NCBI GenBank assembly: GCA_036874045.1
Contig: CM072336.1
Location: 18,471,001 to 18,535,000, forward strand
Length of the DNA stretch: 64,000 nucleotides
Origin: Cymodocea nodosa
Taxonomy: Eukaryota; Streptophyta; Magnoliopsida; Alismatales; Cymodoceaceae
Reading direction: 5' to 3'
Positions 2,530-46,750 of the stretch are shown here, piece after piece. The notes beneath the pieces are model-generated. The model did no database searches. It saw nothing but the letters and a program-made list of their open reading frames with translations, and was not told the DNA's origin. Positions within the stretch are counted from its first letter, which is position 1, and each line of letters starts with the position of its first letter. The position numbers and the translations under genes were made by a program.

Positions 2530-3178
2530 ATATGAGAAACAAAAATATCATACCAGTTCACCTGTATATGGTTAATTAATGCATATGTAGCGTAAAGACA
2601 ACATCTGCCAACCTTTGCACCATGACCAAACCTCTAAAAGAGTGAAGCATGCAGTATTTTTGCAATAAAATGTGCTTGGCCATTTAAATCATTTAGTAAT
2701 CGCATTAGATTGTTGGCAATCAAATTTTTGGCTAAACTTTTAATGTCCCATCCCAACTGATAAACTTTTTTTTTTCTAATAATTTAACTCCATTTTTCAG
2801 ACCAAGTACTTGATAAAGTAATTCTGGAGTTAAATATATATTGTAGTCTTGTATATTGGAAATAGGAATATCTTCTTCCATTGTTAAGTTTGAGTAAAAA
2901 CAACTTATAAGTTCTGAAATAACAAAATGACCTAGCTGTTGTGGAAGTAGAGTCAACAAGCCTTGAAATTCAAACATTTCTCATATATGTGCCATCCCTT
3001 CAAACTTAACTAGTCTTGAATATAAAACTGTAAAAGTTTTATATGTTTGAAATTTTTCATAATAGGAACAATTTCTGAACCATAATAATGTATTTTTGTG
3101 TAAATTCTGTTCAGGATTAGGTATTTTCCTATCATGATGTTCTAATGTGAGACTTGTTTCAAAATTATCAGTAACATC
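2530..3178 (-). pseudogene. SIRE-type ORF3 C-terminal fragment (element B family)
   Basis: The minus strand encodes FEFQGLL, an FYSNL segment, LTPELLYQVLGLKNG and, after stops, INHIQMNWYDIF. These are the landmark blocks of ORF3 in element B at 54364-55130. The domain looks like the putative plant transposon protein domain found in plant retroelement accessory ORFs (from memory, not searched). It is truncated at 3178 by the G element LTR, and at 2529 it runs in frame into gypsy integrase. The product is unknown and the copy is dead. Confidence 0.75.
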
Positions 3179-5798
3179 TAAAATTGTGCATTTTTATGTG
3201 ATATTATTTTTGCTTCCTATGACTTAAATGTTAAATAATGCATGATTATAATTGAAATATCATCACATAGGCATTTACATGAGTATGCATGATTATGGGA
3301 TTTAATGACTTAAATTTGCGCAACTTAGCCCTTTTGTTGATTATTGACTTAATGATCATGGGAATGAATAGTGATTATTTACTTAGATGTCTTAGATGTT
3401 TTCTTCTTGTTATATTTTAATTTGTTTGCTTAAGTTTTAAAGGTTATCTAAAGGAAATAAGATGGATGAATCTCAACGGTTGGATCTACCAAGGAAGAGA
3501 TCAACTAGCAAGTCTATTTAAAAGGAAGGACAACCCAAAACTAGGTTTTGTCTTCTCCTCTCCAAGCAAAAACGTGGCTCCTTCTTCTCCTTGGATTTCT
3601 AGTGGCCAAAGCTCCTTGGAAGCAAGTCACTTCCTCTCCAGTGTTGCTGATTTTGGTGGTGTGCGGAGAGAGCAAGTTGGACCCAAGGGAGGCATGTTCG
3701 TGGAAGCTCCAAGGAAGGACGTGGGTGCATAGAAGATGATTTTATTGGGTGCAACTCCCCTTCTTCTTCTATGTACAACTTTCTTGCATGGAGGACAGTA
3801 GGAACCTCTTGTGGAGAGGCCTCTTCATCCGGTTTGGAGGTGATATGCATGTTGAAAGCAAGGAAGGAGCCAACTAGGGCTTGGTTGGTGGACATCCATG
3901 AGAAGGAAGCTTGTTGCCTTCATCCTTTGGTGAAATCTTGAAGCCCCTTAGTATTTCAAGAGGAAAACGTGGTGTGACAGGCCATGTTGGAATCTTGAGG
4001 ATGTGAGGGAGGCCAACTTCAGGAGCTTACTTCAAGGTGTTGGAGATTTAAAGGTATAACTTGGAGTGGGTTGACCAAAAAAAAAAACTATCATTATGTT
4101 TGCATATGTTGTGTGTTATCATTATGTTTGATGTTGTTTTTGTATTGCATATGTCTTTGCATGTTTAGGTTTATTTTTAGTAGTATAATCTTCATTTTTA
4201 TGTTGTAAAACTCTTAGTTCGTTTAATGAAACTTGCCTTTGAAAATGAATGATTTTCGTGTAGATATGTGAATACATGTAGTCAAGGTGTTTGTTTACTG
4301 TAAAGACAAAAGTTTCCTTGTGTTGTTTTCTTTGTAAATCGAGTTTTTATAAATGTTTTTCATTGATTCTTAAGTTTTTTTTGTAGAGAAATAAAAGAGA
4401 TTCTTTCTATATACTTTGTTTAATTTTTTGAGTACTTTTGGTTTGATTTTTCCATTTTATACGAAGAGTGTATTCTCAGTCCGAAATCACATTTTCGATG
4501 AGTAGTTTTTTGGAAATGTCTGATATGATTTCTCCCTCTATACAGTATGTTTTTAAGATCTATAAATTGTGTTTATTAGATTGATGAGTCTACTTTCGTT
4601 CAGCGGTGATTTCATAGACTTTTATGAAGAATTGATAAAGTTCTCGAGTTTTTACTGTGAGTGTGCGTTTTGCATTATTTTAAGATCGTTTTGCGCACCT
4701 TACTAGGGCTTAATGTTATTTTCAACTGAGGATGATTTAGACTTTAAAATCACCGTGTCATGTTAGATAACTTGAAACCATTTCAAGTACATATTTTTAC
4801 ATGATTTTTCATTGCCTATTTTGGGAGAAATCATTATTATAATTAGAGATATTTTTTGTGATTTCGGAGAACAAGTTAGGAAGGGAGCAGATTTTTGTAG
4901 TTCCGGATTCTAGCCAAACAGAATCCTACCCTACATTATTCCTTTCTTAGAAGACGTTTTTCATAGAGTTTTTTAGTGTTTCTTGATTCCATTTTGTAAG
5001 AAATTTTGTGTTTATTACAATCATGTAAATTTTGTATTTTTCCAGAATGTATTTCGTTGGTTTTTGATTTTTTCTTTCAGAGGTCGCAGCAATTTTGAAT
5101 TCATGTTCCACTGCCAGTTTCAGTGCTCGACACTTGAGTGTTTCCTGCATTGCAAACTTTATGGAAAGTTATTTTGTCAATTTTCCATGTTAGTAGTATG
5201 AGTATTTGTTCAAAGCCCTCTAATTTGATAGGATTTCATAGAGTTTTGATTGAGATATGATTTTTGCACCAAAGGTGCGTTTTTGGAAAGTTTACAGAAC
5301 GGTTCTACACCCTGTTATTAAATCCAATACTTCTAGAGTTTTCTAATGATTTAGTCCATGAAATTACTGTCAATTCGAAGATAACTTGAGGATCTTTCCA
5401 ACCAATATTTTCTCTAGATGTTTCAATGTCTAGGTTGGATGTAAGGAGAGTTAGAAGTTGGACTTAATTTTTGTAATTTCAGAGACGAAACCATTAATTC
5501 TCTTGAGTTTCCTAAGGTTTAACCTTAGGAGCTTATTAGATTTTAGGAGATATTTGAACTCTTTATTGTATTTATGTAATTATTACGTATTAATTTGTAA
5601 TTAAAGTTTTATCATGGATTTAGTGATGTGAATATTTTGCTAAGCATTTATTTCCTTAAATTCGTTTAAAACAAGCTTCTTGTGGATCGACCTGCTCTTT
5701 CATATACTTAATACAATTGGTACCGTGCGCTTGTTGTTTATAAATGTAAAATTTGGGATTTTCGTGTTTTAATTCTAAATACAACAAATTTCCTTACA
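3179..5798 (+). repeat. 5' LTR of gypsy element G
   Basis: It aligns with 17927-19997 over nearly its full length, ending TTTCCTTACA before the PBS. Relative to the 3' copy it has about 550 extra bases (about 3240-3790). Aligned stretches differ at roughly 1 to 8 positions per 60, so the insertion is not recent. The expected TGTAAGGAG start is replaced by flanking sequence at a short similarity near 3176-3183. ORFs at 3466-3895 lie in non-coding LTR sequence and are not called. Confidence 0.9.
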
Positions 5799-5804
5799 AG
5801 TTTT

Positions 5805-5822
5805 TGGCGTCGTTGCTGGGGA
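5805..5822 (+). other. Primer binding site of element G
   Basis: TGGCGTCGTTGCTGGGGA lies 6 nt after the LTR end. It differs at two positions from TGGCGCCGTTGCCGGGGA, the PBS form of the H2 element in this window and common in Athila/Tat-type elements. Both differences are C-to-T. It would prime minus-strand synthesis from a host tRNA. Confidence 0.85.
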
Positions 5823-6832
5823 GCTTGGTGTTTTAACTATCTTTGAAATTGTGTTTAGTGAATATATTCCTTTGTGTATTGCATCTCTCTTCTAAGTATT
5901 TTACTTTCTTTTTCTTTTCCTTTTCTTGGAAACACCATATGAGCTAAATTTATATTTATGTGATGGTGTGAATCTCCTTTGGAATTGAAATGACAATCTT
6001 CGTGTAGTCAATTCATAGTGTTGTATGGTTTTTATTACAAAATTGTTTTAAGAATGTGATTTGAAAAACTTTTCTAGTTTTAAGCTAGGTGTAAAATCTG
6101 AGTTTCATGATTTTCTTGAGGTTCTAAAATGTTTAAAGTTTCATTTAAATCAGTATTTGTTGAATTTGGAATTGTATTGAGAGATTTATGAATTTGTGAA
6201 GATGATGGTGTTATGTAGTTTCAAAGCAAAACTAACCTAACTAAAGTTCTTCCTTTGAGAAAACGTTGCAACACCATGATTCAAAGTTTCTAGTAGTTAT
6301 TTTTCTATGAAAGTACACTTCTTTATCTATAATTTGAGTATTTTTGCAATAAATTTGGATGTGTAGGAATTTTTGTGTAAATTTTTAAAGTTGATAGATG
6401 AGATTGATTGCAAGATAGAGTACATTACACTTTAGAAATTGATAGTCTTTTAAATTTTTATGCATACTTTTGCACAAAAGTAGGACTACAAATTTACATG
6501 AATAGATCTTGCTAAGTTAATAAATTCTATGCTTTAATTTAGTCACATGCATATATGTTGTAAAACCCTTTCATCCAAAGTTATATTTGTGAATAAGATA
6601 AATGCTTAAATATCCTTTTGATAAGCCTCTAATTGTTATTCATTGTTATATAGGCTGATCTGAAATAGATATGCATGATTTAAGAATTCGTAGTTAGTCA
6701 TGTTATAACTATTTTCCTAGTTGTAAAATGACTTCATTATTGTTGTCAATTAGAGATTGTGGCATTTCTAAGACACTTTAGCATAAGAATGTCCCTGTTT
6801 TAGACCTTATCATGTTTACGTTACATAAAGCC
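5823..6832 (+). other. Leader of element G, no coding signal
   Basis: About 1 kb of AT-rich sequence lies between the PBS and the nested solo LTR. I find no capsid-like or other recognisable ORF in any frame, although this is where a conventional gypsy gag would begin. The last five bases (aagcc, 6828-6832) are the target duplication of the solo LTR. Confidence 0.7.
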
Positions 6833-8439
6833 TATAGGATCGTATGACTACACAAGAGGGGGGTGAATTGTGTATTTTTAATATTTTTTGAAATATAATT
6901 GAAACTTTAAAACTCAAAAACAAGTCGAGACATTGTTTTCATAAAATCATTTTTATTCAAGGTTTCAATTACAATATACAATTCAATTCTCCTCAGAAAT
7001 TGTAGATGCAATTATATTTCGATACCATGTATCATCTAAACAATTTCATAACTACAAACAGAGAAACCTAATTTACGGAATTTAAAACTTTTCTCCCTGT
7101 TTGAGATCTTTCTTCTTCTTCTTTTTCTTCTTCAGCAATTCTTCAGTATATCTTGTCTTTTCATGCTTCACCGAATTTGCTTTCTTCTAATACTTCAAAT
7201 CTTCAGTGACGAAAATCTTACCTTTTTATGCTTCACTGAACTTTCTTCCACTTGAGAGATTTTCCCCGAGAAGGTGTTTTTGATCCCTAAAAAAGATTTT
7301 TCTTCTGGTGTGCAGGGATGGTTTGATCCTTGAAAAGATTTTTCATTTTTTGTGCAAGGATAAATTGATCAACGAGAATTCTATGCCTTTTATACTGTAT
7401 CTTCATTTCATGCATATCCTTCACGTTTAACCACTACCAGTTTTCCACTTCTCCACATCTTTTCTTTTTCCTTCATCGAAACACACACGTTCTAACCCAC
7501 GTTTATATTTCGAATTTTCTTTAATCATTAGTCCTGGATCTCTGAAAAATTTCCTGCAAAATAAACATTCTCGTCCAAAAGTTTTTCATCAGTGTAATAA
7601 GAAGTCGTTACTTTAATGTTAACTAAACGAGTAACACAAGTATATATATAACTTAACGTTTCTAACTTAACGAGTTCCTCATGTGCCATTTCACGTGACA
7701 AGTACTGTAGCTAACTCAACGAACTAAGTCCGTGGTGTTATGCTATCTCAACGAACCATCTCCGTTGTGTTATGATAACTCAACGAACCATTTCCATTGT
7801 GTTATGATAACTCAACGAACCATTAATAAACAAATGTTTTTATAATAAGAATTTTACCACGTGCAAAAATAACAACTTAAGTTTATAACGCTAACCTAAC
7901 GCGTTGCCTTAGTGTTCAATATAGCAACTCAACGTGTTTAGTTATGTTAACTTAACGAGTTAAGCATGTGCACCTCACGTGATACAATACAACATTCGTA
8001 ACTTATAATTTCACCACATGTATAACACTAACTTTACGAGTTCGTCTCTTCTTTTACTCACTAACTTAACGAGTTATCACATGACCTATTTTAACCTTTA
8101 AGCCTCTAACTTAACGAGTTCTCACGTGACCTCTATACAAACAAAACTCTAACTTAACGAGTTGTCTAAACGTGCACTATTCATGATACAGAGATATAAC
8201 ATTAAAACATATCATGCTTTTCAATAAAAACACACGTTAACTTAACGTTTAGCTAAATGAGAAATTAATGCAACGAAACGACTAAATATTAACTTTAGAT
8301 CCAATACAGACAAGTATTTATATCAGTAAGCTTTTTCTGTATTAATTGATGATTTCAATTTCTTTTCACAAGCAATAGTAATTGAGCAAATATGATTATT
8401 TTCATTCAGCACACATCATCAAAACAAAAATACTCAACA
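6833..8439 (-). repeat. Solo SIRE-type LTR in the G leader, target duplication aagcc
   Basis: A full-length 1.6-kb LTR in minus orientation, from a TATAGGATCG edge (normally TGTAGGATCG) to the CTCAACA edge. It is flanked by perfect aagcc repeats at 6828-6832 and 8440-8444. There is no PBS or PPT on either side, so the element left by LTR-LTR recombination. A TATA box (TATAAAAGG on the minus strand) is at 7386-7394. It is of the subfamily with three tandem ~34-bp units (7700-7820) in place of the GGATAGTTA block of elements A and C. Confidence 0.95.
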
Positions 8440-8563
8440 AAGCCATAAATTGTATGTAAAAAAAAAAGGGGGGGCACATAGCTCACACACTCTTACAACT
8501 CCTTATGTAGATTCGACTTGTATTTTGTTACTTCAATGAATTAATTGAAAAACTCGCTAGTAG

Positions 8564-8833
8564 GTGTGTTATTTGACTACTATTTCATTGTTAAGCATGG
8601 ACAAACATAATACTTTTCATGCTATTATTAAGAAACCTCTTATGCCTACATGTAGTAAGTGTATGTTATTTGATCATGAAAATGATGAATGCCCTTTTTA
8701 CATGTTGAAAGAAAATGCAAATTTGCATGAGACGAATTGTAATCTCATGGGAAGTGTAGTTGGGCCTAGTGGGAGCACTTTTTCTCATCCTTCATGCTTT
8801 AGTGAAGATTTAGCTAAAGTGGAAGAATGTTTG
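8564..8833 (+). pseudogene. Zinc-knuckle/linker module at the start of G pol, first part
   Basis: This ORF contains a CX2CX4HX4C zinc knuckle (CSKCMLFDHENDEC, about residues 28-41) in a low-complexity context. It is interrupted after ...EECL by a solo LTR and resumes at 10434 in the same frame, leading into LRSGRDY and the protease. In conventional Athila/Tat elements such a knuckle and an LRSG linker follow capsid in one polyprotein. Here no capsid lies upstream. The stretch 8445-8563 before it is non-coding and includes an A-run followed by seven G. The start is uncertain: ATG at 8564 or 8597. Confidence 0.65.
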
Positions 8834-10428
8834 TGTTGAGTATTTTGTTTTGATGATGTGTGCTGAATGAAAATAATCATATTTGCTTAATTACTATTGC
8901 TTGTGAAAAGAAATTAAAAATATCAATTAATATATAAAAAACTTACTGATATAAATACTTGTTTGTATTGGATCTGAAATTATACTATTAAATAACTAGT
9001 CGTTTCATTGCATTAATTTCTCATGTAACTAAAAGTTAAGTTAACGTGTGTTTTTTATTGAAAAGCATGATATGTTTTACAGTTATATCTTCTGTATCAT
9101 GAACAGTGCACGTTTAGACAACTCGTTAAGTTAGAGTGTTATTTGTATAGAGGCCATGTGAGAACTCATTGAGTTAGAGACTTAAATGTTAAAATAGGTC
9201 ACGTGAGAACTTGTTGAGTTAGTGAGTAAAAGAAGAGACGAACTCATTAAGTTAGTGTTGTACACGTGGTGAAATTATAAGTTACGAATGTTATATTGTA
9301 TCACGTGAGGTGCACATGTTTAACTCGTTAAGTTAACATAACTAAATGTGTTGAGTTGCTATATTGAACACTAAGGCAATGCGTTAGGTTAGCGTTATAA
9401 ACTTAAGTTGTTATTTTTGCACGTAGTAAAATTCTTATTATAAAAACATTTGTTTATTACTGGTTCGTTGAGTTATCTGTAATACCATGAAGTTGGTTCG
9501 TTGAGTTAGCGTAACACCATGGAGATAGTTCGTTGAGTTAGCTATAGTACTTGTCACGTGAAATGGCATATGAGGAACTCGTTAAGTTAGAAACATTAAG
9601 TTAATATCTACTTGTGTTACTTGTTTAGTTAATATTAAAGTAACGACTTCTTATTACACTTGATGAAAAATTTTGGAAGAGAAAGTTTATTTTATAGGAA
9701 ATTTTTCAGAGATCCAAGATTGATGATTAAAGAAAATTTGAAATATAAACGTAGGTCGGAACATGTGTGTTTCGATGAAGGAAAAAGTAAAGACATGAAG
9801 AAGTGGAAAATTGGTAGTGATTAAACGTGAAGGATATGCATGAAATTAACATACAGTATAAAAGGCATAGAGTTCTCGTTGATCAAACTATTCCTGCACA
9901 CCAAAAGAAAAATCTTTTCAGAGATCAAAAACACTCTTCGGGGAAAAGCTCTCAGGTGAAAGAAAATTTAGTGAAGCAGAAAAAGGTGAGATTTATGTCG
10001 CTGAAGATTTGAAGTATCAATTGGAAGAAAGTTCAGCGAAGTAGAAAAGGTAATATATACGTCACTTAAGATTTAAAATATCAGAAGAAAGTAAATTTGG
10101 TAAAGTAGAGAAAGACAAGATATTCATCACTGAAGAAGAAAAAGAAGAAGAAAGATCTCAAATAGGGAGAAATGTTTTAAATTCCGCAAATTAGTTTTCT
10201 CTATTTGTAGTTATGAAATTGTATAGATAAAACATGGTATCAAAATATAATTGCATCTACAATTTCTAAGGAGAATTGAATTGTATATTGTAATTGAAAC
10301 CTTGAATAAAAATGATTTTATGAAAACAGTGTCTCGACTTGGTTTTAAGTATTGAAGTTTCAATTATAATCAGAAAAAGTTGAAAAACACAATTCACCCC
10401 CCCTCTTGTGTAGCCATACGATCCTACA
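8834..10428 (+). repeat. Solo SIRE-type LTR inside the G coding region, target duplication gtttg
   Basis: A full LTR from TGTTGAGTATTTTG to CGATCCTACA, flanked by perfect gtttg copies at 8829-8833 and 10429-10433. There is no PBS after it. TATAAAAGG at 9857-9865 is the promoter box and AATAAA near 10303 is a possible poly(A) signal. It sits in the linker between zinc knuckle and protease of element G; removing the LTR plus one target copy restores an uninterrupted frame across the site. Confidence 0.95.
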
Positions 10429-10433
10429 GTTTG

Positions 10434-11480
10434 AAACAACTTAGCTTGGGCAGAAGCAACCACTATCAATTGGAAAATACTTTTGAGGGTTAACCACATT
10501 TTGGGTGGAAAATGCATAGTGGCCATAATGTTGAGGTAGATACCTTTGCTCTTTTGAGGTCGGGAAGAGATTATTGTGGGCCTAGTGAAACATCTCAACC
10601 ATCAATTATAGAACCACCCAAAGTAAATCAACCTGCTACCATCTTAGACTCTAATCAAGGACTAGATTCCTATCCACATGGTGATAATGGACTTGCATAT
10701 AAAGAATCAAATAACAATCAACCTGCACCTTATCCCCATAGATTAAGATCTAGGACTAGTTCAGATGAGTCCTTAGACAAGATTAAAGAGATTTTTGAGC
10801 AAGTTAGAGTAAACATTCCCTTGCTAGAAGCCATCCAACAAGTCCTTGCTTATGCAAAATTTCTTAAAGACCTATGCACTAGGAAAAGGATTAGTAGGAT
10901 CCAAAGGAAAGTTTTCCTAACTAAAATTTCTAGTTCTCATTTCTCTGATTATGTCCCAAAGAAATATGATGACCCTGGAACCCCTACTATCTCTTGTGTC
11001 ATAGGGAACACTTGTTTTGATAAAGCCTTAATAGACTTAGGGGCAGCCATCAATGTTATGTCTTTTAATGTCTACATGGACTTAGGACTTAAGGAAATTA
11101 AACCTACTAGGATGGTTATCCAATTAGCAGATCATTCGATTAAAACCCTTTTAGGTGTAATAGAAAATATCTTAATTAAAGTTCAAGACTTTATTTACCC
11201 AATTGATTTTGTAGTACTAGAGAGTCATCCTATCGGCGAACCCACTAAGAGAAATACTTCATTAATTTTGGGGCGACCTTTCTTGGCAACAACCAATGCT
11301 TATATTGGTTGTAGGAATGGGTCCATGCAAATTTCTTATGGAGATTTAAGGGTGGAGTTGAATATTTTTGAACAAAATAATCAAAATGAGGAGCAACTGG
11401 ATGAGAATTATGAAGTTAAGCTTGTAAATGTTTTTGAGGAAATTGACATAGAATGTGAAGAAGAGTGTGTAAATGTGTAA
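10434..11480 (+). pseudogene. Gypsy aspartic protease with upstream linker (element G)
   Basis: The linker has ALLRSGRDY at about 10545, then a proline-rich spacer ending APYPHRLRSR. An FLKDLCTRKR helix and the retropepsin domain follow: catalytic ALIDLGAAINVMS at about 11025-11065, the flap region, and LILGRPFLATT at about 11265-11295. DLGA in place of DSG/DTG is usual for the Athila/Tat group. It would mature the polyprotein. One TAA lies in the linker near 10490; otherwise the frame is open to 11480, where it ends in an acidic tail before RT. Confidence 0.88.
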
Positions 11481-11513
11481 GAGATATATGTTGTTGTTAA
11501 CATAGATGAATCA

Positions 11514-13158
11514 TTGGAAGATAGTAATGAAGCAGAAATCAGTGTAGTGAACTATGTGGCACCATTGGATTATACTTTATTTGAACCTCAACCAATTAAG
11601 AAACCATTAATTGTGGAACCTCCAGAGTTAGAACTTAAACCTTTACCCCAAGAGCTTAAGTATGTTTACTTAGGGGAAGGTGAAACTCTTCCCATGATCA
11701 TTGCTTCTACTCTAGCATTAGAGCAAGAAGAGGAATTACTTGAGGTTCTAAGAAGAAATAAGGAAGCTATTAGTTGGACAATAGCAGATATTAAGGGGGT
11801 GAGTCCTACTATATGCCAACATCGGATCTGAGTGAATGAGGAGGTTCGACCTTTTAGAGATCCATAAAGAAGACTTAACCCCAATATGAGTGAAGTAGTA
11901 AGGAAAGAACTCCAAAAGAGGCTAGATCATGGAATTATTTTTGCTATTTTAGATAGTATTTGGGTTTCACCGGTCCAAGTGGTCCCAAAGAAATTTGGAA
12001 TAACTGTAGTAGAGAACAGCTATAATGAACTAGTACCAACACGTGTGCAGACAGGGTGGAGAGTTTACATCGATTATAGGAAATTGAATGTAGCCACATG
12101 GAAAGATCACTTCCCCTTGCCCTTTACAGATTAGATGTTAGAGAAATTAGCAGGGCAAGAGTTTTATTATTTTTTAGATGGCTATTCAGGCTACAATCAG
12201 ATCCCTGTTGCACTAGAGGACCAAGATAAGACGACATTTACTTGTCCCTTTGGAAATTTTACTTTTCGACGAATGCCATTTGGACTATGCAATGCACTTG
12301 CAACCTTTCAAAGGTGCATGACAGGTATTTTTTTTGATATGATTGGAAGATTCTTAGAGATATTTATGGATGATCTTTCCATATCAGGGTCCTCTTTTAA
12401 GGAATGTCTACATCACTTAGAGTTGGTACTTCAATGGTGTATAGAATATGACCTTGTACTAAATTGGGAAAAATGTCATTTCATGGTGCAACAAGGTGTT
12501 GTACTTGGTCATATTGTATCAAAGAGGGGCTTGGAAGTAGACAAAGCAAAAGTTGATTTGATTGCTAATCTTCCAACTCCAAAGTCTGTGAGGGATATTA
12601 GAGCTTTTCTCAGTCATGCTGGATTTTACCATAGATTTATTAAGGACTTTAGCAAAATTGCCTGTCCATTGACTTCATTGCTTGTGAAGGATCACCCTTT
12701 TGAGTTTTCTTAACTTTGTCATGATTCCTTCAAGCAATTAAAGAGAGCTTTAATGACAACACCTATAGTGCATTCCCTAGATTGGAATGAACCATTTGAA
12801 CTTATGACTGATGCTACAAATTATGCATTAGGAGCTGTACTTGGACAAAGACTAGATAATTTACCACGGGTAATATATTATGCTAGCAAGACATTGATCG
12901 ATGCTCAATTGAATTACACTGTTACTGAGAAGGAGTTCCTGGTTATGGTTTTTGCTTTAGAAAAGTTTAGACCTTACTTTATTGGGTCTCATATTGTAAT
13001 CTACAGTGAGCATTCTGCTATTAAATATTTGTTAACAAAGAAGGATGCCAAGTCTAGGTTAATTAGGTGGATTCTATTACTACAGGAGTTTGACATTGAA
13101 ATTAAGGATAAAAAGGGATGTGAAAATGTAGTCGTTGATCATTTGTCCTGCCTTAGTT
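11514..13158 (+). pseudogene. Reverse transcriptase-RNase H of gypsy element G
   Basis: RT blocks appear in order: [59 protein letters not shown] (catalytic Asp pair) and VLGHIVSKRGLEVDKAKV. RNase H follows: [23 protein letters not shown] and [13 protein letters not shown]. The usual Asp of YTDH/YMDH in the last motif is Glu here, which would impair RNase H. There are stops at 11829, 12132 (TAG where the H copy has a Lys codon) and 12711, and the region around 11830-11890 is disrupted. Inactive. It is similar to, but clearly diverged from, the H copy at 20450-21825. Confidence 0.93.
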
Positions 13159-14466
13159 CACCATCTATAGGCCCACCTATCAATGATTCTTTCCTTGATG
13201 AACAGGTATTTGCCATCAACCCTAGCCCATGGTATGCAGATATAATCAACTATTTAGCTGTTGGGTTAATACCCCCACATTGGTCATCTAGGGAGAAAAA
13301 GAAATTTTTATTTCGAGTTAGAGATTTTAATTGGGATGACCTATATTTGTTTAAAAACTGTCTTGATCTAATAGTACAAAGATGTATACCTGACTCGGAG
13401 ATTGCAAGTGTGCTAAATTTTTGCCATGACCAACCTGGAGGTCATTTGAGCTCAGGGAAAAATAGCAGCTAAGGTCCTTCAATGCGGCTTCTTTTGGCCG
13501 ACAATTTTTAAGGATGCCTTTAATCACTGTAAAACTTGTGAATCATGTCAAAGAGTGGGCAAGATAGGAAGGAAAGATATGATGCCACTCACGCCAGCAA
13601 TTGAAGTTGAGATTTTTGATTTGTGAGGGATAGACTTTATGGGCCCTTTTCTGAATTCTAGAGGCTATTTGTATATCTTATTGGCTATTAATTATGTGTC
13701 TAGGTGGATAGAGGTCATCCCTACTAAATCTTGTGATACTAAAGTAGTAATTAATTTTATTAGGTTTCATATTTTCTCTCGCTTTGGCACTCCACGTGTA
13801 ATAATCAGTGATCGGGGAACTCATTTCAATAGCAAGAGTTTTGAGGCTCTAATGGAGAAATATGGAATAACGCATAAAATGGCAACCCCGTATCACCCTC
13901 AGACTAATGGTCTAGTGGAGAATGCAAATAAGCAAATAAAGCAAATTCTTGAGAAAATAATATGACCAAATAAGAAGGATTGGGTAGAAAAATTAGACGA
14001 AGCTTTATGGGCATATAGAACTGCCTACAAGAGTGTCTTGGGAATGTCACCATTTAGAGCTATTTATGGTAAAACATGCCATTTGCTAGTTGAGATAGAA
14101 CATAAAGCTATGTGGGCAATTAAGAAACTTAACTTGGATGAGTATGCAATTAAACAAGCAAGAAACCTATAGATCATGGAATTAGAAGAATTAAGGAATG
14201 AGGCCTATGAGAATTCTAGAATAGCTAAAGAAAAGGCCAAAATATTCCATGATAAGAAGATTTTGAGGAAGGAATTTCAACTAGGCCAGTAAGTGCTACT
14301 TTATAACTCTAGACTCCACATTTTCCTTGGGAAATTTAGCTCAAGATGGAGTGTCCCCTATATTGTGAAGAAGATGTACCCTCATGGAGTGGTGGATATA
14401 GAAAACCCAAAAACAAGGGATGAATTTAAAGTCAATGGCTATCGCCTAAAGCTGTTTCTGAACTAG
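13159..14466 (+). pseudogene. Integrase of gypsy element G
   Basis: It starts with the [16 protein letters not shown] linker. The HHCC region is broken near 13458 by an extra A in an A-run. The core has GIDFMGP, VIISDRGTHF and GLVENANKQIK, so all three DDE residues remain. The C-terminal [25 protein letters not shown] and [13 protein letters not shown] blocks follow, ending at the TAG at 14464-14466. Further stops are TGA at 13624 (a Trp codon position), TGA near 13963 and TAG near 14170. No protease or capsid follows directly; gag begins about 400 nt later. Confidence 0.92.
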
Positions 14467-14869
14467 AAGATGGGACGACCTTCTATAGAGCAAGATCTGT
14501 TGGAACCCATCTATGGTTAGGGTAGTGTTAATATATTTATTTATTTACATACTTATTTTTTCCTTATTAGTTTATGCTTATTGAGTTGTTTAGTTTTTAT
14601 CTTATATTATTTGATTATGTTGTAACTTCTACCATTTTTGTTGTATCATTAATTCTTTTCTTTGAAACTATTTAATAGAGCACTACCTATTCTAATGTGT
14701 TTTTCTTAGCAAGACTTGAAGACAATATATAATTGGTACGCTTTTCCTTTTTACACTTTTGTTGCACTTCATATTACTTTAGTTATTTGTTACACTGGAT
14801 AGTCATTGGAGACAGACGAGGGCAAATAGACTAGTTAGGATAGAGAACTTAGACCCACCAGTTGTAGAA
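14467..14869 (+). other. Spacer between integrase and gag in element G
   Basis: AT-rich and non-coding for most of its length. GTTAATATATTTATTTATTTAC (split by eye at 14526-14547) is TATA-like. I see no LTR edge, no PBS of the TGGCG type and no palindrome cluster. From about 14800 the gag frame is open upstream of its first ATG (RANRLVRIENL), so the gag N-terminus may begin earlier than 14870. Confidence 0.6.
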
Positions 14870-16212
14870 ATGGCCAACCAAAGGGGACTTAGGCCTTTAG
14901 CAGATATTTATTATCCACCCCAAGTTGACCAATCATCTTGCTTAGTTCTACCTCATATTGAAGGTCAAAAATTTGAGTTACACTCTAGTTATATAAGTCA
15001 ATTGTCAAGATTCTTAGGTCGAGAAAATGAGGACGTTTATTTGTTTTTGCAAGAATTCAATGAAATCTGCAGACTAGTGCACATCCCCGAGGTACCCATG
15101 GATGCTGTATGATTAAGATTCATACCATTTGCACTTAAAGATGATGCTAAGTGTTGGATGAATAGTCTTGTGCCATCTTCTATAAACTCTTGGGCAGAAT
15201 TCTGTGCGGCTTTTCTCAAAAAGTATAACCCCACCCATCGCACTATTCAATTAAAGAATTCCATACTTAGTTTTAAATAGAAAACTGATGAGACCTTTTG
15301 GAGATTCTTTGAGCGTTTCAAAACCTTATTAGCAAGATGTCCTAATCATGGCATTGAAAAAGCAAAGAAATGTACTATTTTATATGAAGGATTGAATGCT
15401 TCTTCAAAGCAGCTATTGGAATCCACGTACTCTAGAAGTTTCTGCAATTTAATGAAGACGAAGCTTGGGATGCATATGAGCGTTTAGCGGAACAAACTAT
15501 CCAATGGGAAGAACCATCTCCTACATCATCAGGAGATAGGAGTATAGGTGCTACATTGAGTAGAGGGGTTCATGCTGTGGAACCCCTAACAGCTCGAATG
15601 AGTTCTAAAATGACTAAGCTAGAGGAACAAATGCAAGAAGTTCTAAATCTTCATAAGAAGAAGGATCCCATTGTCAACATTTTTGAGATTCATTGTGAGG
15701 GGTGTGGCCTTGATGACCATAGTATTGATCGATGTCCTGTGATTTATGGGCAAGCTGAGCTAGTCTGTGCTGTGTAGAATTTTCGAGGAGGTTATAACTC
15801 TCAATATTACAACCCAAATTGGAGAAACCACCCAAACTTCTCTTGGAAGATGCAAGATAATCATAGGGGTGGTGGGCCATCAATTCGATTAGGAGTTGGA
15901 ACATCATAGTCTAGTCACCCTACCCAAACTTTACCAACTTTGCCAGCCCCTCCCCAACCTTCTATTATGGACTTAGAGAAGAGATTAATTGAGATGGAAA
16001 AAGGCATTCAATTGATGCTAAAGATAACACCTGTTCTGATTGAGCATTCACTCGTGATTTAGCATATAGAATCCCAACTTGCGTGGTTGTTGCCTGCCTC
16101 TACACCATCCATGGATAGGCAATCATTGCCTAGTCAGCCTGTGCCCAACCCTAGAACCAATCATGGGGGGGGGAAGTACTTCTTGATTTTATTCTCACAA
16201 GTGGTAGTGTAA
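14870..16212 (+). pseudogene. gag (capsid + zinc knuckle) of element G, located after integrase
   Basis: The N-terminus MANQRGLRPLADIYYPP is followed by a retrotransposon gag (capsid) domain: FELHSSYISQLSRFLG, the LQEFNEICRLVHIP region, AKCWMNSL, the WAEFCAAFLKKY block and ETFWRFFERFKTLLARCPNH. Then come a coiled region, a CX2CX4HX4C knuckle (CEGCGLDDHSIDRC, about 15702-15743) and YNPNWRNHPNFSW (about 15810-15848), the classic tail of Athila/Tat gag. Stops at 15110, 15278, 15774 and 15907 and a frameshift near 15440 inactivate it. In related elements this domain precedes protease; here it lies 0.4 kb after integrase and 1.7 kb before the 3' LTR. Confidence 0.9.
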
Positions 16213-17910
16213 AAAAATAAAAATAAAATAAAAATTTCTACTTTATATGTCTTTATTTCATATGCTTTGTATTCTATTTTCTTTAGTTTTGATCTATTTG
16301 TTGGTTTTGTAGTTTCTTTTGTGTGTCCAAGAGTAAGGTACATGATGCTACATCTCTCTACTCTCTATTGCATTTGCATGAATTTTATAGTATACATTTT
16401 TCTATGGATATGCTACGCAATCTCCATTACATGTCTTTAGGAATGAAACTTTATATGCTTTATGCTTATGTTAGCACATCTCGAAGAGACATCTGTTTGC
16501 TTACCTTGCCTTTTACTTCTTATTTGTTCAGTGTAATAATAGATCATCTACACTCATAACATTTCCATACTTAAGTGTCATAATAAATTCATTGAGGACA
16601 ATGCATCATTTAAGTGTGGGGGGGTGGCATGTAGATTATTCTCGATATTTTTATTGTGTTTTCATGTATTTTTTGTGATGTTAGTGAATTTTCATGTGTT
16701 TTTCTTGTTATTTTTGTTGTTATTGTTCTTACATTGTGTTTTGATTAGACCCAAGTGATGAGATTTTGAAACTCAAGAAATGCTATTAGGATTTATGGGT
16801 TTAGCCCCATTTCTTTTTGAGTGGACTCCAGAACCTAAAGCGTGGACCTATTGTTATGTTCTTTAGAGAAAGATGAGTCTCATGTTAGTTGCGCCTTGAG
16901 TGAAGTCTTCTTTATCACTAGGATTAATGCCTTGTTTGATGCACCTATTTGAGTGATCCCACAAAGAGGTTTGCATATTATGTAACCTTAAGGTGAGATT
17001 TTTTTTTAGGATCCTCTCAAACTTTTATGAGATTTTGAAGGATATGCCTAAGAGAGTACCAAGGTTATCATTACTAGCATGCTAAGCAAGTTTTGTTGGG
17101 AATCAAGGTTCTGAAAAAAAAAAAAAAAGAATGAAAAAAGAAAGAAAGAAAGAAGAAGCAAGTAATGTTGAAAAGGGAGCTTAAAGATCATATGGGAAGA
17201 AAGAAAGTAGTTGACTTTCTTAAATTTTTAGCTTTCCCTTCTTCTATGTATATGGGTGTTTGGCATGCTATGTAGTTGGTACCTTTGTAACTTGTACTAG
17301 ACATTTTTTAACATTTCTCAGTAGAAGAGAGGGAGTTGTAGTCACTACCTATTATTTGGTTATTATTGCATATTCATAGTCATGTGCATTATATGTTCTT
17401 ATGTGTAGTGAGGGTGAGATTCTTATTGTATCAAGGTAGATGGTCCTTTTGATAAGGTGACTCTTCTTACACTCTAATATGGGCTTATTGGAATCTAAAG
17501 AACTAGTGAAGTTTCTTTTCTACTAAGCCACCATTATGCCTATTGACCTTAATAGCACCATTGAGCTTAATAATTTCTCATTCGAGTTTGATCTTTGTCT
17601 TTGTTTTGTTGTGTATCTTATTTACTTGTCTTTTGATTGCTTTAAGTTGTGTTTTCTTTTTATTTTGATTTGGACTTTATGGGTGTATCCACTGAAAACC
17701 CTCTGGAGACAAAACTCTGCCACTAGGGCAACCTAGAGGTTTAACAGCTTATTACATATGCTAAATGTAGTTGTTACGCCTATGAAAAGGAGCACTAGTT
17801 AAGATTTCCCTTTTGTTTTGTTTTGTATTTGAATAAAAGCTTCTAGTAATTGTCATTCTAATCATTTCCTAGTTTATATACTTGAATACTTGCTAGGGAC
17901 TAGCAAGACT
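16213..17910 (+). other. 3' non-coding region of element G
   Basis: I find no convincing protein. It contains GAGGACAATGCATC and TTTAAGTGTGGGGGGG at about 16594-16626, a PPT-like word typical of the 3' regions of Athila/Tat-type elements. A purine run of A then GAAA units lies at 17113-17160. A T-rich region with a short ORF at 17536-17736 has no recognisable domain and is not called. Confidence 0.6.
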
Positions 17911-17926
17911 TAAGTGTGGGGGTATT
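17911..17926 (+). other. Polypurine tract of element G
   Basis: AAGTGTGGGGGTATT lies immediately before the LTR start TGTAAGGAG at 17927. A longer similar word occurs 1.3 kb upstream at about 16609-16626. It would prime plus-strand DNA synthesis. Confidence 0.75.
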
Positions 17927-19997
17927 TGTAAGGAGTAAAATTGTGCATTTTTCTGTGATATTATTTGTGCTTCTTATGACTTAAGTGTGGAGGACAGTAG
18001 GAACCTCTTGTGGAGAGGCCTCTTCATCCGATTTGGAGGTGATATGTGTGGAGAAATCAAGGAAGGAGCCAACTAGGGCTTGGTTGGTGGACATCCATGA
18101 GAAGGAAGCTTGTTGCCTTCATCCTTTGGTGAAATCTTGAAGCCCCTTAGTATTTCAAGAGGAAAACGTGGTGTGACAGGCCATGTTGGAATCTTGAGGA
18201 CGTGAGGGAGGCCAACTTCAGGAGCTTACTTCAAGGTGTTGGAGATTTAAAGGTATAACTTGGAGTGGGTTGACCAAAAAAAAAAACTATCATTATGTTT
18301 TCATATGTTGTGTGTTATCATTGTGTTTGATGTTGTTTTTGTATTGCATATGTCTTTGCATGTTTAGGTTTATTTTTAGTAGTATAATCTTCATTTTTAT
18401 GTTGTAAAACTCTTAGTTCGTTTAATGAAACTTGCCTCTGAAAATGAATGATTTTCGTGTAGATATGTGAATACATGTAATCAAGGTGTTTGTTTACTGT
18501 AAAGACAGAACTTTCCTTGTGATGTTTTCTTTGTAAATCGAGTTTTTCTTAATGTTTTTCATTGATTCTTAAGCTGTTTTTGTAGAGAAATAAAAGATGA
18601 TTCTTTTTGTATACTTTTCTTAATTTTTTGAGTACTTTTGGTTTGATTTTTCCATTTTATACGAAGAGTGTACTCTTAGTCTGAAATCACATTTTCGATT
18701 AGAAGTTTTTCAGAAATGTCTGATATGATTTCTCCCTCTATACAATATGTTTTTAAGATCCGTAAATTGTTTTTATTAGATTGATGAGTTTACTTTCGTT
18801 CAGAAGTGATTTCATAGACTTTTATGAAGAATTGATAAAGTTCTCGAGTTTTTACTGTGAGTGTGCATTCTGCATTATTTTAAGATCATTTTGCGCACCT
18901 TACTAGGGCTTAATGTTATTTTCAACTGAGGATGATTTAGATTGTAAAATCACTGTGTCATTTTAGATAACTTGAAACCATTTCCGGTACATATTTTTAC
19001 ATGATTTTTCAGTGCCTATTTTGGGAGAAATCGTTATTATAATTAGAGATATTTTTTGTGATTTTGGAGAACAAGTTAGGAAGAGAGCGGATTTTTATAG
19101 TTTCGGATTCTAGCCAAACATAATCTTTCCCTACATTATTCCTTTCTTAGAAGACATTTTTAGTAGAGTTTTTTAGTGTTTCTTAATTCTATTTTATAAG
19201 AAATTTTGTGTAGATTACAGTCATGTAAATTTTGTATTTTTCCAGAATGTATTTCTTTGGTTTTTGATTTTTTCTTTCAGAGGTCGCAACAGTTTTGAAT
19301 TCATGTTCGATTGCCAGTTTCAGTGCTCGACGCCTAAGTGTTTCCTACACTACAAACTTTATGGAAAGCTATTCTGTCAATTTTCTTTATTAGTAGTACG
19401 AGTCTTTGTTCAAAGCCCTATGTTTTCGTAGGATTTCATGGAGATTTAATCGAGATATAATTTTTACACCAAAGGTGCGTTTTTGGAAAGTTTACAGAAC
19501 GGTTCTGCACCCTGTTAGTAAATCCAACACTTCTAGGGTTTTATAATGATTTAGTCCATGAATTAATATCAATTCGAAGATAACTCAAGGATCTTTCCAT
19601 CCAATATTTTCTCTAGATTTTTCAATGTCTAGGTTGGATGTAAGAGAGTTAGAAGTTGGGCTTAATTTTTGTAATTTTAGAGACGAAACTCATTAATTCT
19701 CTTGAGTTTCCTAAGGTTTAACCTTAGGAGCTTATTGGATTTTAGGAGATATTTGAACTCTTTATTGTATTTATGTAATTATTACCTATTAATTTGTAAT
19801 TAAATTTTTATCATGGATTTAGTGATGTGAATATTTTGCTAAGCATTTATTTCCTTAAATTCGTTTAAGACAAGCTTCTTGTGGATTGATCTGCTCTTGC
19901 ATATGCTTAATATAATAGGTACTGTGTGCTTGCAGTTTATAAATGTAAAATTTGGGATTTTCGGGTTTTAATTCTAAATACAACAAATTTCCTTATA
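17927..19997 (+). repeat. 3' LTR of gypsy element G, internally deleted
   Basis: It starts TGTAAGGAGTAAAATTG and ends TTTCCTTATA (ACA mutated to ATA). It matches the 5' LTR except that about 550 nt equivalent to 3240-3790 are missing, with the join near 17990-17996 at the shared TGGAGGACAG. The right flank at 19998 is in the middle of an H-family protease gene. Confidence 0.9.
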
Positions 19998-21825
19998 AGG
20001 GCTCTTATAAATTATAAAACTAGAGTGATGAAGTTAGCATATGGTAATGAGGATACTCAATTAAACATTTTCAAACTAGAAAAGTTTGAGGAGTTAGAAA
20101 TGTCCTTATATACTATAAACTTTCTAGAGGATGAAGGAGATATGTTAGATGATGTGATTCAAGAAGAATTAAATAGTCAACTAAATTTTGAAAATTTAGG
20201 AGTAAGTGAAAGCATAAATGTAGTAGGAGATCAAGAAGAGATTATTATAGAAAATGATGATGTTTAATTAGGAGCTCTAGCTTTTGATGGTCAACATTTA
20301 GAATTAAAACATTTACCTCCTGAATTAACCTATACATTTCTGGAAGAAAAATGAACATGTCCAATCATTATTGCTTTAGATTTAAAATAGGATCAAATTG
20401 CTAAATTAAAAGATGTAGTAAAAACTTATAAAGAAGCAATAGGATGGACTATGATTGATATAAAAGGATTAAGTGCAACTTTATGTTGTCATCACATATA
20501 TTTAGAAGAGAATGCTACACCAGTTAGAATTCTTGAGAAGAGATTAAATCCAAACCTTAAAGAAGTAGTCAAGAAAGAAATAGTGAAATGGTTAGATAAT
20601 GACATAATTTATCCGATTTCTGATAGCTCATGGGTTAGCCCAATCCATGTAGTTCTCAAGAAATCAGGATTAACAATTATTAGGAATGAAAGTTAGGACT
20701 TGATACCTACTAGAATTCAATCAGGCTGGAGAGTGTGTATAGACTATAGAAAACTGAATGCTGTGACTAGGAAAGATCATTTTCCCTTACCTTTTATAGA
20801 TAAAATGCTAGAGAAATTAGCGGGGCAAGAATATTTTTGTTTCTTAGACGGGTATTCAAGATATAACCAAGTTCCAATAGCATTAGAGGATCAAGAGAAA
20901 ACAATTTTCACCTATCCTAATGGAACTTATGCTTTTAAGAGAATGTCATTCGGATTATGTAATGCACTAGCCACCTTTCAAAGGTGTATGCAGGGCATAT
21001 TCATCGGAATGACTGAAGATTTTTTAGAAGTATTTATGGATGATTCTATTATTTATGGAACTTCATATGAAGTATGTTTAAACAATTTAGACCAAGTATT
21101 AAAATGCTGTGTGGAAAAAAGTCTGGTTCTAAATTGGGAAAAATGTCACTTCATGGTTAATCAAGGAATAGTCTTGGGACATGTTGTTTCAAAGAAAGGG
21201 TTGGAAATAGATAAAGTTAAAATAGAAGTAATTTCTAATCTACTAGAACCTAAATCAGTAAAAGATATTAGATCATTTCTAGGACATGTAGGATTTTATA
21301 AAAGATTCATTAAAGATTTTAGCAAAATAGCTAGACCTTTAACTAATTTATTAAAAGATGTCCCATTCAACTTTGATAAAAATTGCAAAGAAGCATTTTT
21401 CAAGCTTAAAACTAGCTTAATTTCAACTCCTATAATACAAGCACTTGATTGGAGCCATCCATTTGAATTAATGTGTGATGCATCTTATTTTGCTGTAGGA
21501 GCAGTGTTGGGACAGAAGATAGAAAAATCTCCTAGAGTGATTCATTATGCAAGCAAAACTTTAAATGATGCTCAAGTTAATTATACAACTACTGAAAAAG
21601 AGTTGTTAGCTATTGTGTTTGCCTTAGAAAAGTTTAGATTATATCTGATTGGAGCTAAAGTGATAATATACATGGATCATTCAACTTTAAAACACCTAAT
21701 ATCAAAGAAAGAGACTAAACCTAGATTGATCCGATGGATATTATTATTACAAGAGTTTGATCTAGAAATTAAAGATAAAAAAGGTTGTGAGAATGTAGTA
21801 GCAGATCATTTATCAAAATTACAAA
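19998..21825 (+). pseudogene. Protease end, RT and RNase H of gypsy element H
   Basis: The first codons match the end of the H2 protease (VMKLAYGNEDTQLNIFKLE). An acidic linker follows, then RT blocks [51 protein letters not shown] and [10 protein letters not shown]. RNase H has [35 protein letters not shown] and [11 protein letters not shown]; its catalytic residues look intact. The frame is open from 20700 to 22061. Stops upstream include 20265, 20352, 20388 and the TAG at 20694 just before IPTRIQSGW. This is the best-preserved gypsy RT in the window. Confidence 0.93.
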
Positions 21826-23197
21826 TAAAAAAGTCAAATATTGAAATTAAGGATAATTTTCTTAATGAACAATTAATAACCATCAACACAATGCCTTGGT
21901 ATGCAGACATAGTTAATTACTTAGTTACTAGTTTAACACCTAAGGATTGGAATAGACAGGATAAGAAATTGTTCTTTTCAAGAGTAAAATATTACTACTG
22001 GGAAGACCCATACTTATTTAAGAAATGTCCTAATCTAGTTTTAAGGAGGTGTGTTCCATAAACTAAATATCAAAGCATATTGTCTTTTTACCATAACCAA
22101 GCATGTGGAGGGTATTTTGGTTTAGGGAAAACTACTGCCAAAATTCTGCATTGTGGATTTTATTGGCCAACACTATTCAAAGATGCTCATAAATATTGTT
22201 TAAGTTGTTTAAGATGCCAACAAATAGGAAGAATATCAAAGAGGAATATGATGCCTTTTAATCCTATTGTTGATGTTGAAATCTTTGATGTGTGGGGAAT
22301 AGATTTTATGGGTCCATTTCCTATGTCTAATCAATTTAATTATATATTATTGGGGGTGGATTATGCATCTAAATGGATAGAAGCTATTCCTACAAAAACT
22401 AATGACAACAAAATGGTAATACATTTTATAAGAACTAATATAATTGCCAGATTGGAATACCTAAAGCTATTATCAGTAATAGAGGAACTCATTTCTGTAA
22501 TAGAAGTTTTGAAGCCTTAATGAAGAAATATGGAGTAAATCACAAAATTGCAACATCATATCATCTGCAAACAAGTGGACAAGTAGAAAGTACAAACAAA
22601 CAAATTAAGTTAATCTTAGAAAAAGTAGTAAATCCTACTAGAATAGATTGGGCTAATTGATTAATAGATGCACTTTGGGCTTATAGAACTGCTTATAAGA
22701 CAAGCTTAGGTATGTCACCTTTTAGGCTAGTATATGGAAAAAGTTGTCATTTACTAGTTGAAATTGAACATAAAGCTTATTAGGCATTAAAAACTCTAAA
22801 CACTAATTTAAATCAAGTTGTTGAGAATAAGAAAATACAATTAATTGACTTAGAAGAATTTAGGAATGAAGCTTATTCAAAAACTGTAAGAGAAAAAGAG
22901 AGAATGAAGTTTTGGCATGACAAGAAAATTATTCCAAAAACCTTTGAAATAGGTCAAGAAGTATATCTTTACATGACTAGACTCCATAACCATCCAAGAA
23001 AATTAAGATCTAGGTGGGCAAGACCTTACATAATTTGAAATATTTATTCCTATAGAGTTATTGAAATTGAAAATTCTTAAAATCAAAATATATCTAAGGT
23101 AAATGGATAAAGACTTAGACCTATTTTGAAGATACTAAAAAGTTCTTTTAGAATTATAGAAGAAGTAAGAGTAGAGGACTACTCGAGCTTTACTTAG
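21826..23197 (+). pseudogene. Integrase of gypsy element H
   Basis: The [21 protein letters not shown] linker leads to the zinc-binding region (FYHNQACGGYFG, CLSCLRCQQ). The core has GIDFMGPF, an ISNRGTHF segment with the second catalytic Asp changed to Asn, and GQVESTNKQIK. C-terminal blocks end at the TAG at 23195-23197. A stop at 22059, a one-base loss near 22452, and stops near 22660 and 22783 (TAG at a Trp position) inactivate it. The next 0.7 kb is a spacer that leads to ORF3, not to an LTR. Confidence 0.92.
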
Positions 23198-23918
23198 TAA
23201 GAAATTTTCTAAATATATATAAAAAAAACCTTATTTAAACATAGTCATGGTTCAACCGAAAGAAATTATCGGTTTTACTAAAACATATATTAAAAGAAAA
23301 AAATCGTTGCAGTTCATCCGACAAGATCCATTAGTCGGATCGAAACATAAAAACATAAAAATTTTATATATAATATTAAGTAAAAATATCAATTTTTCAA
23401 AAGCATGGTATCAGTTCAATTGGTAAGAAAAAAGGAGAGTATTTAGTTTTGGTTCAACCGAGGAATATAACGGTTTGACCAAAATGCTAAATGATGAAAA
23501 AAAAAAAAATTAAGAGTCGATTAGACCGAAAATTCTTCGATCTTGACCGAAGTAAATATTATTATTTTAAGTATTTTTATTAGTTATAACTTTACGAAAA
23601 GTTCGTTGAGTTACGCTTGACTCAATGAACTTACTCCGTTGAGTCTAGGATAAGTTAGCGAGTTTACCCCGTTGAGTAAACTATAACTCAACGGAGTACT
23701 ATAGTTAAGTTAACGGACTTAGTCTATGGAGTTAACTGTAACTCCACGGATAGATAGAGAGAGAGCGAGAGTTTGCACGAGAAAATGACTGGATTACCCG
23801 CCTAAACTTAGGGTTTATTTATACTAAAACTTAGGATTTAGGGGCATTATCTGCAGAATCATTTAGAACTTAGACCAGTAGAGATCAAAGCGATTCCGTT
23901 CCATTTCGTTACTCCACA
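23198..23918 (+). promoter_or_regulatory. Putative ORF3 promoter of element H: palindrome cluster plus TATA-like box
   Basis: 23597-23758 packs repeated GTTGAGTTA / TAACTCAACG near-palindromes with both orientations alternating. A GA-rich stretch follows, then TTTATTTATACTA at 23814-23826, about 99 nt before the ORF3 ATG. The same cluster-TATA-ORF order occurs in the H copy at 870-1196. 23220-23560 holds repeated ggttcaaccga words and A-runs with no coding signal. The promoter function is inferred from this layout and from the like-built H LTR promoter (46363-46472). Confidence 0.55.
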
Positions 23919-26161: not shown

Positions 26162-27293
26162 TTATCTTGTTTGTCTACTTATACTTGTATTAAAAATATC
26201 TGATTGAATGTAAATTATTCATATAAATGAATGAATATTTTTTTTAGATGTTTTTGAATTCGTGTTAGAGAATGAATGATATAATTGAGAACTGTATTGA
26301 ATATTATATAATTGTAAACAATGTAAAAGAATGTTTAAAAGATTTACAAATTTTCTAAATGACATGATTAAATGCACGATAATTGGTTAATGCTTGAATA
26401 TATCTACATGCTGAAAAGTAAAATGTAAATTCTGCATAACAGGAAATGAACTGTAAGTTAAATATGCATATAATGTTCAGATTTAAATGAGTTAAATTAG
26501 AACACTACATTAATGATAGGTATTTAACTTTATTTAAGTTGATAAAATGTAGGAAAAAAAATATATATATAGAAGTTAATATGAGGAGTAAGTTTTAGAA
26601 AATTTGCTAAGTGTTAACTCAATGGAGTAAGTTCGTTGAGTTAACCTTAACTCCACGAGGTCAATAATAAAATATAAGGTTACTCCGTTGAGTTATCTGT
26701 AACTCAACGAAGTTAGTCCGTGGAGTTAGCAAATAGAAACTGAAGCTAGTCTGTTGAGTTAACTATAACTCAACAAGGTTAGTTTGTGGATTAAGCTGAA
26801 CGGTTATTCTTTCAGCCATGAATGAAACTTCATGGGTTTAGTAGTTACTAAAATTTAAAATTAGAAGTGAAACACGTATCCATAAAAATAGGAATCGCAT
26901 TGCACGTTACAAGACACATTCTTGCAACGAGATTCATTTGCTTTATGGATGTGCATTATAAATATAGAACAGAATGTTATTTACAAGTTACCAACACTTG
27001 AGAAAAGAAAATTCGTTGGGGAACTAGAAGGAGAAGCAGCTGATTCAACTTCATTCGTCAACAACTATTTATTGAAAACAAAGCTTCAGACTGGAATGTA
27101 ATTAATCTTCTGCTATTTTACTTTATGTTAAGAGTTTATGAGTACATGGATTCATTCTCCTAGCACTAAACAATTAGTAAGAATACCTACACAGGATTAT
27201 TCAACACAGAGGTGTATTGAAATATATTCTGAATAGGACTTAAACGAAATCCTTAGGAGTGTAGCTAACCTTTCTTTAAAAGAGAACGAAGAT
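26162..27293 (+). promoter_or_regulatory. Spacer before H gag with palindrome cluster and TATA-like box
   Basis: 26612-26802 carries the same motif type (GTTCGTTGAGTTA, TAACTCAACGAAG, CCGTGGAGTTA). TTATAAATATAG at 26956-26967 follows, 330 nt before the gag ATG. The gag frame is open from about 27150 with one stop. I looked for an LTR end and PBS here, which would make gag the start of a second element, and found neither. A promoter role is inferred. 26162-26600 is plain AT-rich sequence. Confidence 0.5.
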
Positions 27294-46725: not shown

Positions 46726-46732
46726 AGTTTTA

Positions 46733-46750
46733 TGGCGCCGTTGCCGGGGA
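46733..46750 (+). other. Primer binding site of H2
   Basis: TGGCGCCGTTGCCGGGGA, 7 nt after the LTR end; the standard PBS form of many Athila/Tat-type elements. It is unmutated, unlike that of element G. Confidence 0.9.

Follow-up and report, generated by a model that had tools for sequence, protein, structure and literature searches.

In which order can the genes of a plant Ty3/gypsy retrotransposon stand? Long terminal repeat (LTR) retroelements are described as carrying gag first and pol second, and the ratio of Gag to Pol is usually explained by that order. The question is raised by an element, here called G, in a 64-kb stretch of Cymodocea nodosa DNA (contig CM072336.1, positions 18,471,001 to 18,535,000; hereafter the window, from which all G- and H-type copies analysed here come). 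In G the capsid lies behind the integrase and none lies upstream, and the DNA into which G is inserted, a second and diverged element called H, has the same pol-gag order on one strand. G and H are probably dead copies of an Athila-like Ty3/gypsy lineage in which Gag came to lie behind the integrase through the gain of a second gag and the loss of the first capsid. The features of G itself are these:

3179-5798, + strand: 5' LTR, its first ~9 bases unrecognisable, with ~560 bp extra at 3231-3789 (LTR-LTR alignment)
5805-5822, + strand: primer-binding site (PBS) TGGCGTCGTTGCTGGGGA, 6 bp behind the 5' LTR (exact pattern scan)
8597-8833, + strand: head of the Pol open reading frame (ORF), a nucleocapsid remnant with ATG and zinc knuckle CSKCMLFDHENDEC (at 8651)
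10494-11480, + strand: PHFGWKM remnant, LRSG linker and protease; Asp_protease 4.5e-4 (10494-11477)
11868-12713, + strand: reverse transcriptase (RT); RVT_1 3.6e-24 (12135-12710)
12714-13472, + strand: RNase H; RT_RNaseH 3.8e-32 (12714-13469)
13450-14466, + strand: integrase; rve 1.2e-15 (13627-13962), Integrase_H2C2 3.7e-6 (13450-13623)
14783-16212, + strand: gag, with N-terminus, capsid (14783-15484), zinc knuckle (15694), NPNWRNHPNFSWKM and C-terminal part; several stops
16610-16622, + strand: internal second exact copy of the 13-mer TTAAGTGTGGGGG, ~400 bp behind gag
17910-17922, + strand: polypurine tract (PPT) TTAAGTGTGGGGG, 4 bp before the 3' LTR
17927-19997, + strand: 3' LTR (LTR-LTR alignment)

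A Pfam search run on ten ORF pieces of G recovered the protease, RT, RNase H, integrase order of Ty3/gypsy elements followed by the capsid, the protease weakly, as its match lies below the curated cut-off. Together with the LTR alignment and the pattern scans, this confirms the order LTR, PBS, protease, RT, RNase H, integrase, gag, PPT, LTR given in a preliminary description of the locus. The two LTRs are 93.7% identical over 2014 columns (3789-5800 versus 17988-19999), with a further match of 3166-3231 to 17923-17988; the ~560 bp at 3231-3789 are absent from the 3' LTR. The exact PBS pattern occurs in the window at 5805 and, as TGGCGCCGTTGCCGGGGA, at 46733 in an H-type copy only; the two sites differ at two places, and their letters are presumably of the tRNA-Asp type that Athila elements use.

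The position of the capsid is the central observation. Retrotrans_gag matches the gag of G at 9.4e-12 (15113-15277) and 2.5e-5 (15281-15484) in Pfam, and a profile built from 15 database gag proteins matches 14783-15109 at 2.4e-21. The gag placed at 14870-16212 in the preliminary description thus does lie behind the integrase, but its capsid starts earlier, at 14783, and the gag is not complete in the sense of intact, being broken by several stops or frameshifts. Run with all filters off on 1795 stop-to-stop six-frame ORFs of at least 20 amino acids from the whole window, the profile found three pieces in G (14783-15484), one in H (27342-27923, 1.5e-79) and one further piece at chance level (57011-57160, E 0.41). 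In tblastn searches all 15 gag proteins match G between integrase and LTR, and all 15 match H behind its integrase, while the stretch from PBS to protease is matched in G by 2/15 only, on the minus strand at E 0.2 and 0.35, and in an H-type deletion copy by 0/15. A capsid hidden in the G leader is therefore excluded by profile and tblastn, as the earlier claim of no capsid between PBS and protease had it.

The identification of the capsid rests on Pfam, to which structural comparison adds weak support: an AlphaFold model of the H capsid is of moderate confidence (pLDDT 66.7, pTM 0.55), a Foldseek search with it gave nothing at E <=0.001, the 50 matches listed being all HIV-1 capsid chains (best E 0.02, TM ~0.3), and the capsid sequence profile reaches the HIV-1 capsid at E 0.005. 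The search for related gag proteins covered database entries whose length was 0.55-1.75 times that of the query, which left full gag-pol proteins outside its range. One plant-type gag in the database, P0013, is assigned to the bacterium Alteromonas stellipolaris; it comes from a 351-base contig and is probably a case of contamination. A scan of viral contigs matched 5 stretches and yielded 0 relatives.

Upstream of the protease, two insertions foreign to G, both flanked by perfect 5-bp target-site duplications and neither containing a capsid, have to be discounted:

6833-8439, - strand: nested solo LTR, copia-type; duplication AAGCC at 6828-6832 and 8440-8444
8834-10428, + strand: further nested solo LTR, from the same copia-type family as the first; duplication GTTTG at 8829-8833 and 10429-10433

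The family is assigned to copia on account of TGGTATTAGAGC, presumably a copia-type PBS, which stands behind the family copy that ends at 52712. The palindrome at 6833-10428 consists of these two opposed solo LTRs with their duplications, which rules out a foldback element carrying gag, and 8445-8833 is therefore DNA of G itself. Without the nested LTRs the distance from PBS to ATG (8597) is about 1.2 kb; the two insertions correct the earlier account of a non-coding leader of ~1 kb. Once the second solo LTR is discounted, the ATG shares its reading frame with the protease ORF, a single stop at 10491-10493 lying between them.

The Pol of G begins with a nucleocapsid remnant that matches its own downstream Gag. 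Across all six-frame ORFs of the window the exact pattern CX2CX4HX4C has five occurrences (shuffled mean 0.04), two of them in G (8651 and 15694) and the others at 35095, 51662 and 62933, at or beside copia gag DNA. The zinc knuckle of the Pol head matches the nucleocapsid part of G Gag (P 0.0015), and PHFGWKMHSGH of Pol matches PNFSWKMQDNH of Gag, at a level reached in none of 2000 shuffles. G has two nucleocapsid regions and one capsid, which is expected if a second gag was gained and the first capsid was then lost; a plain move of gag looks too simple, because Pol kept a nucleocapsid remnant.

Could the gag block of G be a separate element, with edges of its own, that was inserted behind the integrase? 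The additional PPT 13-mer behind gag looks as if it had once been the end of a gag-bearing element. However, no LTR or PBS adjoins the block, no repeat pair flanks it among the repeats found in 14300-17930, and the spacer at 14470-14869, considered as a copy of the G leader or LTR, shows nothing above 60 shuffles. Such an insertion would also leave the missing upstream capsid unexplained, and H has the same order, all of which makes it extremely improbable.

The features of H and of the H-type deletion copy are the following:

19998-23130 (end approximate), + strand: end of protease, RT, RNase H and integrase of H
23919-26160, + strand: decayed ORF between integrase and gag of H, resembling a copia env-position ORF
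27342-28493, + strand: gag of H, capsid 27342-27923; Retrotrans_gag 2.7e-19, gag profile 1.5e-79
44535-49758, + strand: H-type deletion copy with 5' LTR (44535-46725), PBS (46733), ATG (46835), LRSG, protease and truncated 3' LTR (48752-49758); target-site duplication CCTCT

H pol is 66% identical to that of G at the DNA level, and no LTR or exact PBS match lies between the integrase and the gag of H. The deletion copy, which has 466 bp in common with H and is 89% identical to it there, has an ATG ~100 bp beyond its PBS and then LRSG and protease, with no capsid between. An inverted H-type copy (521-2547) keeps the H order for integrase and the spacer that follows it, and stops short of gag.

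Two phylogenies link G and H. The first, of RT-RNase H, has 39 rows: besides G and H it contains 37 plant matches without lineage names, chosen by likeness to H and thinned to <85% identity from the best 120 of 7982. In it G and H are sisters with support 100/97 (97 in a quick tree). In a capsid tree of 16 rows, from which P0014 was excluded, G, H and the metagenome gag P0004 stand apart from the 13 others with 100/100; both trees were rooted at midpoint. The earlier proposal of a rearranged, pol-first lineage is strengthened in so far as H shares the gene order and the two trees agree on the sister relation; the rearrangement, though, was probably more than a displaced gag. That G and H represent a lineage is likely, on the evidence of one bounded, one unbounded and one deletion copy in a single window.

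Several observations weigh against this reading. Among rows drawn from the best 120 of 7982 matches, 74 of 121 score better than H with the RT piece of G and 40 of 119 with its RNase H piece, and long-branch attraction may have contributed to the sister relation, as both branches are long and rows were chosen for likeness to H. G is the sole copy in the window bounded by LTRs on both sides together with its gag, its left edge is damaged, the first LTR bases being gone, and no target-site duplication was found for it. Both ends of H are missing, so that its gag could be a neighbour's, and H gag has no zinc knuckle of the exact CX2CX4HX4C pattern. The Pol heads of G and the H-type copy show weak likeness (P 0.025 and 0.53), for which reason a common Pol head was dropped; the H-type Pol head likewise matches G gag weakly (P 0.038) and matches neither H gag (P 0.21) nor P0056 (P 0.23), a Pyrus protein in which an apparent gag C-terminus, read from motifs that we presume to mark it, runs into LRSG. 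The C-terminal part of H gag compared with P0056 gave P 0.74. A protein search with the H-type Pol head found one relative, P0016, encoded on a contig of 762 bases, with 91% identity across 56% of the query.

A rival account does without any lineage: G would be a one-off chimera, joining the pol end and the gag end of two Athila-like elements between LTRs, and H pol and H gag would be fragments of neighbours. The region is heavily nested and rearranged: the flanks of G do not match, two solo LTRs lie within it, and H lacks both ends. Recombination among Athila families is documented in Arabidopsis, in the available text of PMC2410132. Yet a chimera requires the same odd order twice by chance, together with loss of the upstream capsid in both G and the H-type deletion copy, and the G-H relation agrees in the RT-RNase H and capsid trees; we regard this account as fairly unlikely. 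At the edges of G, the right flank (19998) is H protease and the left flank (3178/3179) is other DNA, with a copia-type ORF and an inverted integrase; from the mismatched flanks, the lost LTR bases and the lack of a target duplication, the left edge is rearranged.

All copies of the G/H lineage in the window are decayed, and G, with stops or frameshifts in gag, pol and Pol head, is a dead copy. The two gags diverged as working genes: across 182 codons they differ at first, second and third positions by 0.385/0.247/0.632 (P 5e-13), and the two RTs by 0.237/0.153/0.511. This protein-like bias, as strong as that of RT, speaks against an account in which the order is real and the downstream gag a mere passenger, the capsid being supplied in trans by gag-first relatives. 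Athila elements that lack genes are cross-mobilised according to the available part of PMC2410132, and GAG was undetected in 159 Ty3/gypsy elements of a plant LTR survey, in the accessible portion of PMC6317226, but with the codon bias in view a passenger gag is very unlikely.

The preferred reading, a second-gag gain followed by loss of the first capsid, would run as follows; we infer both the direction of the gene-order change and that H pol and H gag form one element. In an ordinary gag-pol element a second, whole gag would have come to lie between integrase and 3' end, either through duplication or through recombination with a further Athila-like element, and the first gag would then have lost its N-terminus and capsid. 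The remaining Pol polyprotein would start with the nucleocapsid remnant, in G reading zinc knuckle, PHFGWKM, LRSG, protease, RT, RNase H and integrase. Genomic RNA from the 5' LTR would be translated into nucleocapsid-Pol, and Gag would come from another RNA, either spliced or started at a promoter in the spacer. The nucleocapsid head might bind packaged RNA and so bring Pol into particles, replacing the Gag-Pol fusion.

Altered domain order has a precedent in the Gmr1-like group of Ty3/gypsy elements, where integrase and RT are swapped but gag, unlike in G and H, stays first. Spumaretroviruses make Pol without fusion to Gag and keep the order gag-pol-env; the likeness is one of working, with no kinship claimed. 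No description of gag behind integrase in plant Ty3/gypsy elements was found in the titles and abstract openings of the open-access literature, which is weak evidence. The nearest known elements are those of the Athila clade (Athila, Calypso, Diaspora), which in the available text of PMC1142308 and PMC6317226 share with G a long LTR with the PBS just a few bases behind it, a gag containing CX2CX4HX4C, the order protease, RT, RNase H, integrase without a chromodomain match, a long leader and room for an ORF behind pol. In G, a chromodomain, as in chromoviruses, had no match in 13627-13962 and 14293-14463 (13966-14292 lay outside the scan), and the second, archaeal-type RNase H (aRH) of the Tat clade (Ogre, Retand) had none in the pieces scanned within 10494-14463, gaps between pieces lying outside. 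According to the accessible part of PMC1142308, Diaspora has a leader of 873 bp and encodes first gag and then pol in a single ORF of 1892 codons, in agreement with the preliminary description of Athila elements as having gag before protease in one polyprotein. This trait is absent from G by gag profile and tblastn: unlike in Diaspora, its capsid lies behind integrase and its Pol starts with a nucleocapsid remnant. Plant env-like ORFs and gene23 of Grande, which has its own promoter, are likewise further ORFs behind pol (PMC7264820, in the text available); they are, however, added to a normal gag-pol, gene23 in antisense, whereas the extra ORF of G and H is gag and the upstream capsid is gone.

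Further genes accompany H, and pol, middle ORF, gag and an F-box ORF all lie on the + strand. The middle ORF is 58% identical in DNA (25393-26027) to a copia env-position ORF at 54991-54367 over 647 columns, and Transposase_32 matches 23919-26160 at just E 0.041; an env-position gene is apparently common to two superfamilies, in H and in the copia-type elements of the window. The F-box ORF (28719-29213; F-box 3.2e-11 at 28719-29006) follows H gag directly after a palindrome-bearing spacer, and may have been captured by the element or be a neighbour's. The 3' end of H was not found in the window. A repeat labelled L was ruled out as its LTR, as the L copy ending at 52712 is followed by TGGTATTAGAGC, which makes the 3' part of such a copia element the likeliest identity of the DNA from 29248 onward. 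The deletion of the H-type copy runs from the protease-RT linker into the 3' LTR, with AATACAGTGC at both borders, as after microhomology repair.

Separate expression of the G and H gags, as proposed in the preliminary description, is plausible; crude promoter and splice scans speak neither clearly for nor against it. TATA-like words occur once in the 403-bp spacer of G, five times with partial overlap in the second spacer of H (1134 bp) and twice with overlap in 1006 bp of LTR, near the composition estimate of ~2.6 per kb; a crude 3' splice pattern gave 1 match, without control. Palindromes of the CGTTGAGTTA type are common to the three spacers of H and the H-type LTR (the spacers score 43, 49 and 31, where the best of 60 shuffles reached 24, 33 and 27), and these are absent from the G spacer. 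Their clusters lie at 23604-23748, 26615-26775, 28606-28648 and 46362-46450 and in copia LTRs; one H spacer also aligns with a copia LTR (57 versus 40), and because CGTTGAGTTA is found in copia LTRs too, it may be a repeat widespread in this genome. One of the 14 pairs compared, G leader versus H spacer 2, is just above the shuffled maximum (40.6 versus 40.1), and nothing is built on it. A wider proposal, which we consider unlikely, is a long-lived multi-gene Ty3/gypsy lineage without Gag-Pol fusion, in which the LTR promoter would drive a Pol headed by a nucleocapsid of its own, and gag, joined in H by the env-position ORF and perhaps the F-box gene, would be separate units, each behind a spacer, with spacers that share palindromes with the H-type LTR and may hold internal promoters.

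The plant LTR survey mentioned above removed all elements with unexpected domain order as likely prediction errors, in the part of PMC6317226 available, and a pol-first lineage could have been lost in such filtering. If the reading proposed here is true, it would mean that the Gag-Pol fusion can be dropped, it would provide a natural case of a Pol with its own nucleocapsid head, and it would tell annotation pipelines what to seek.

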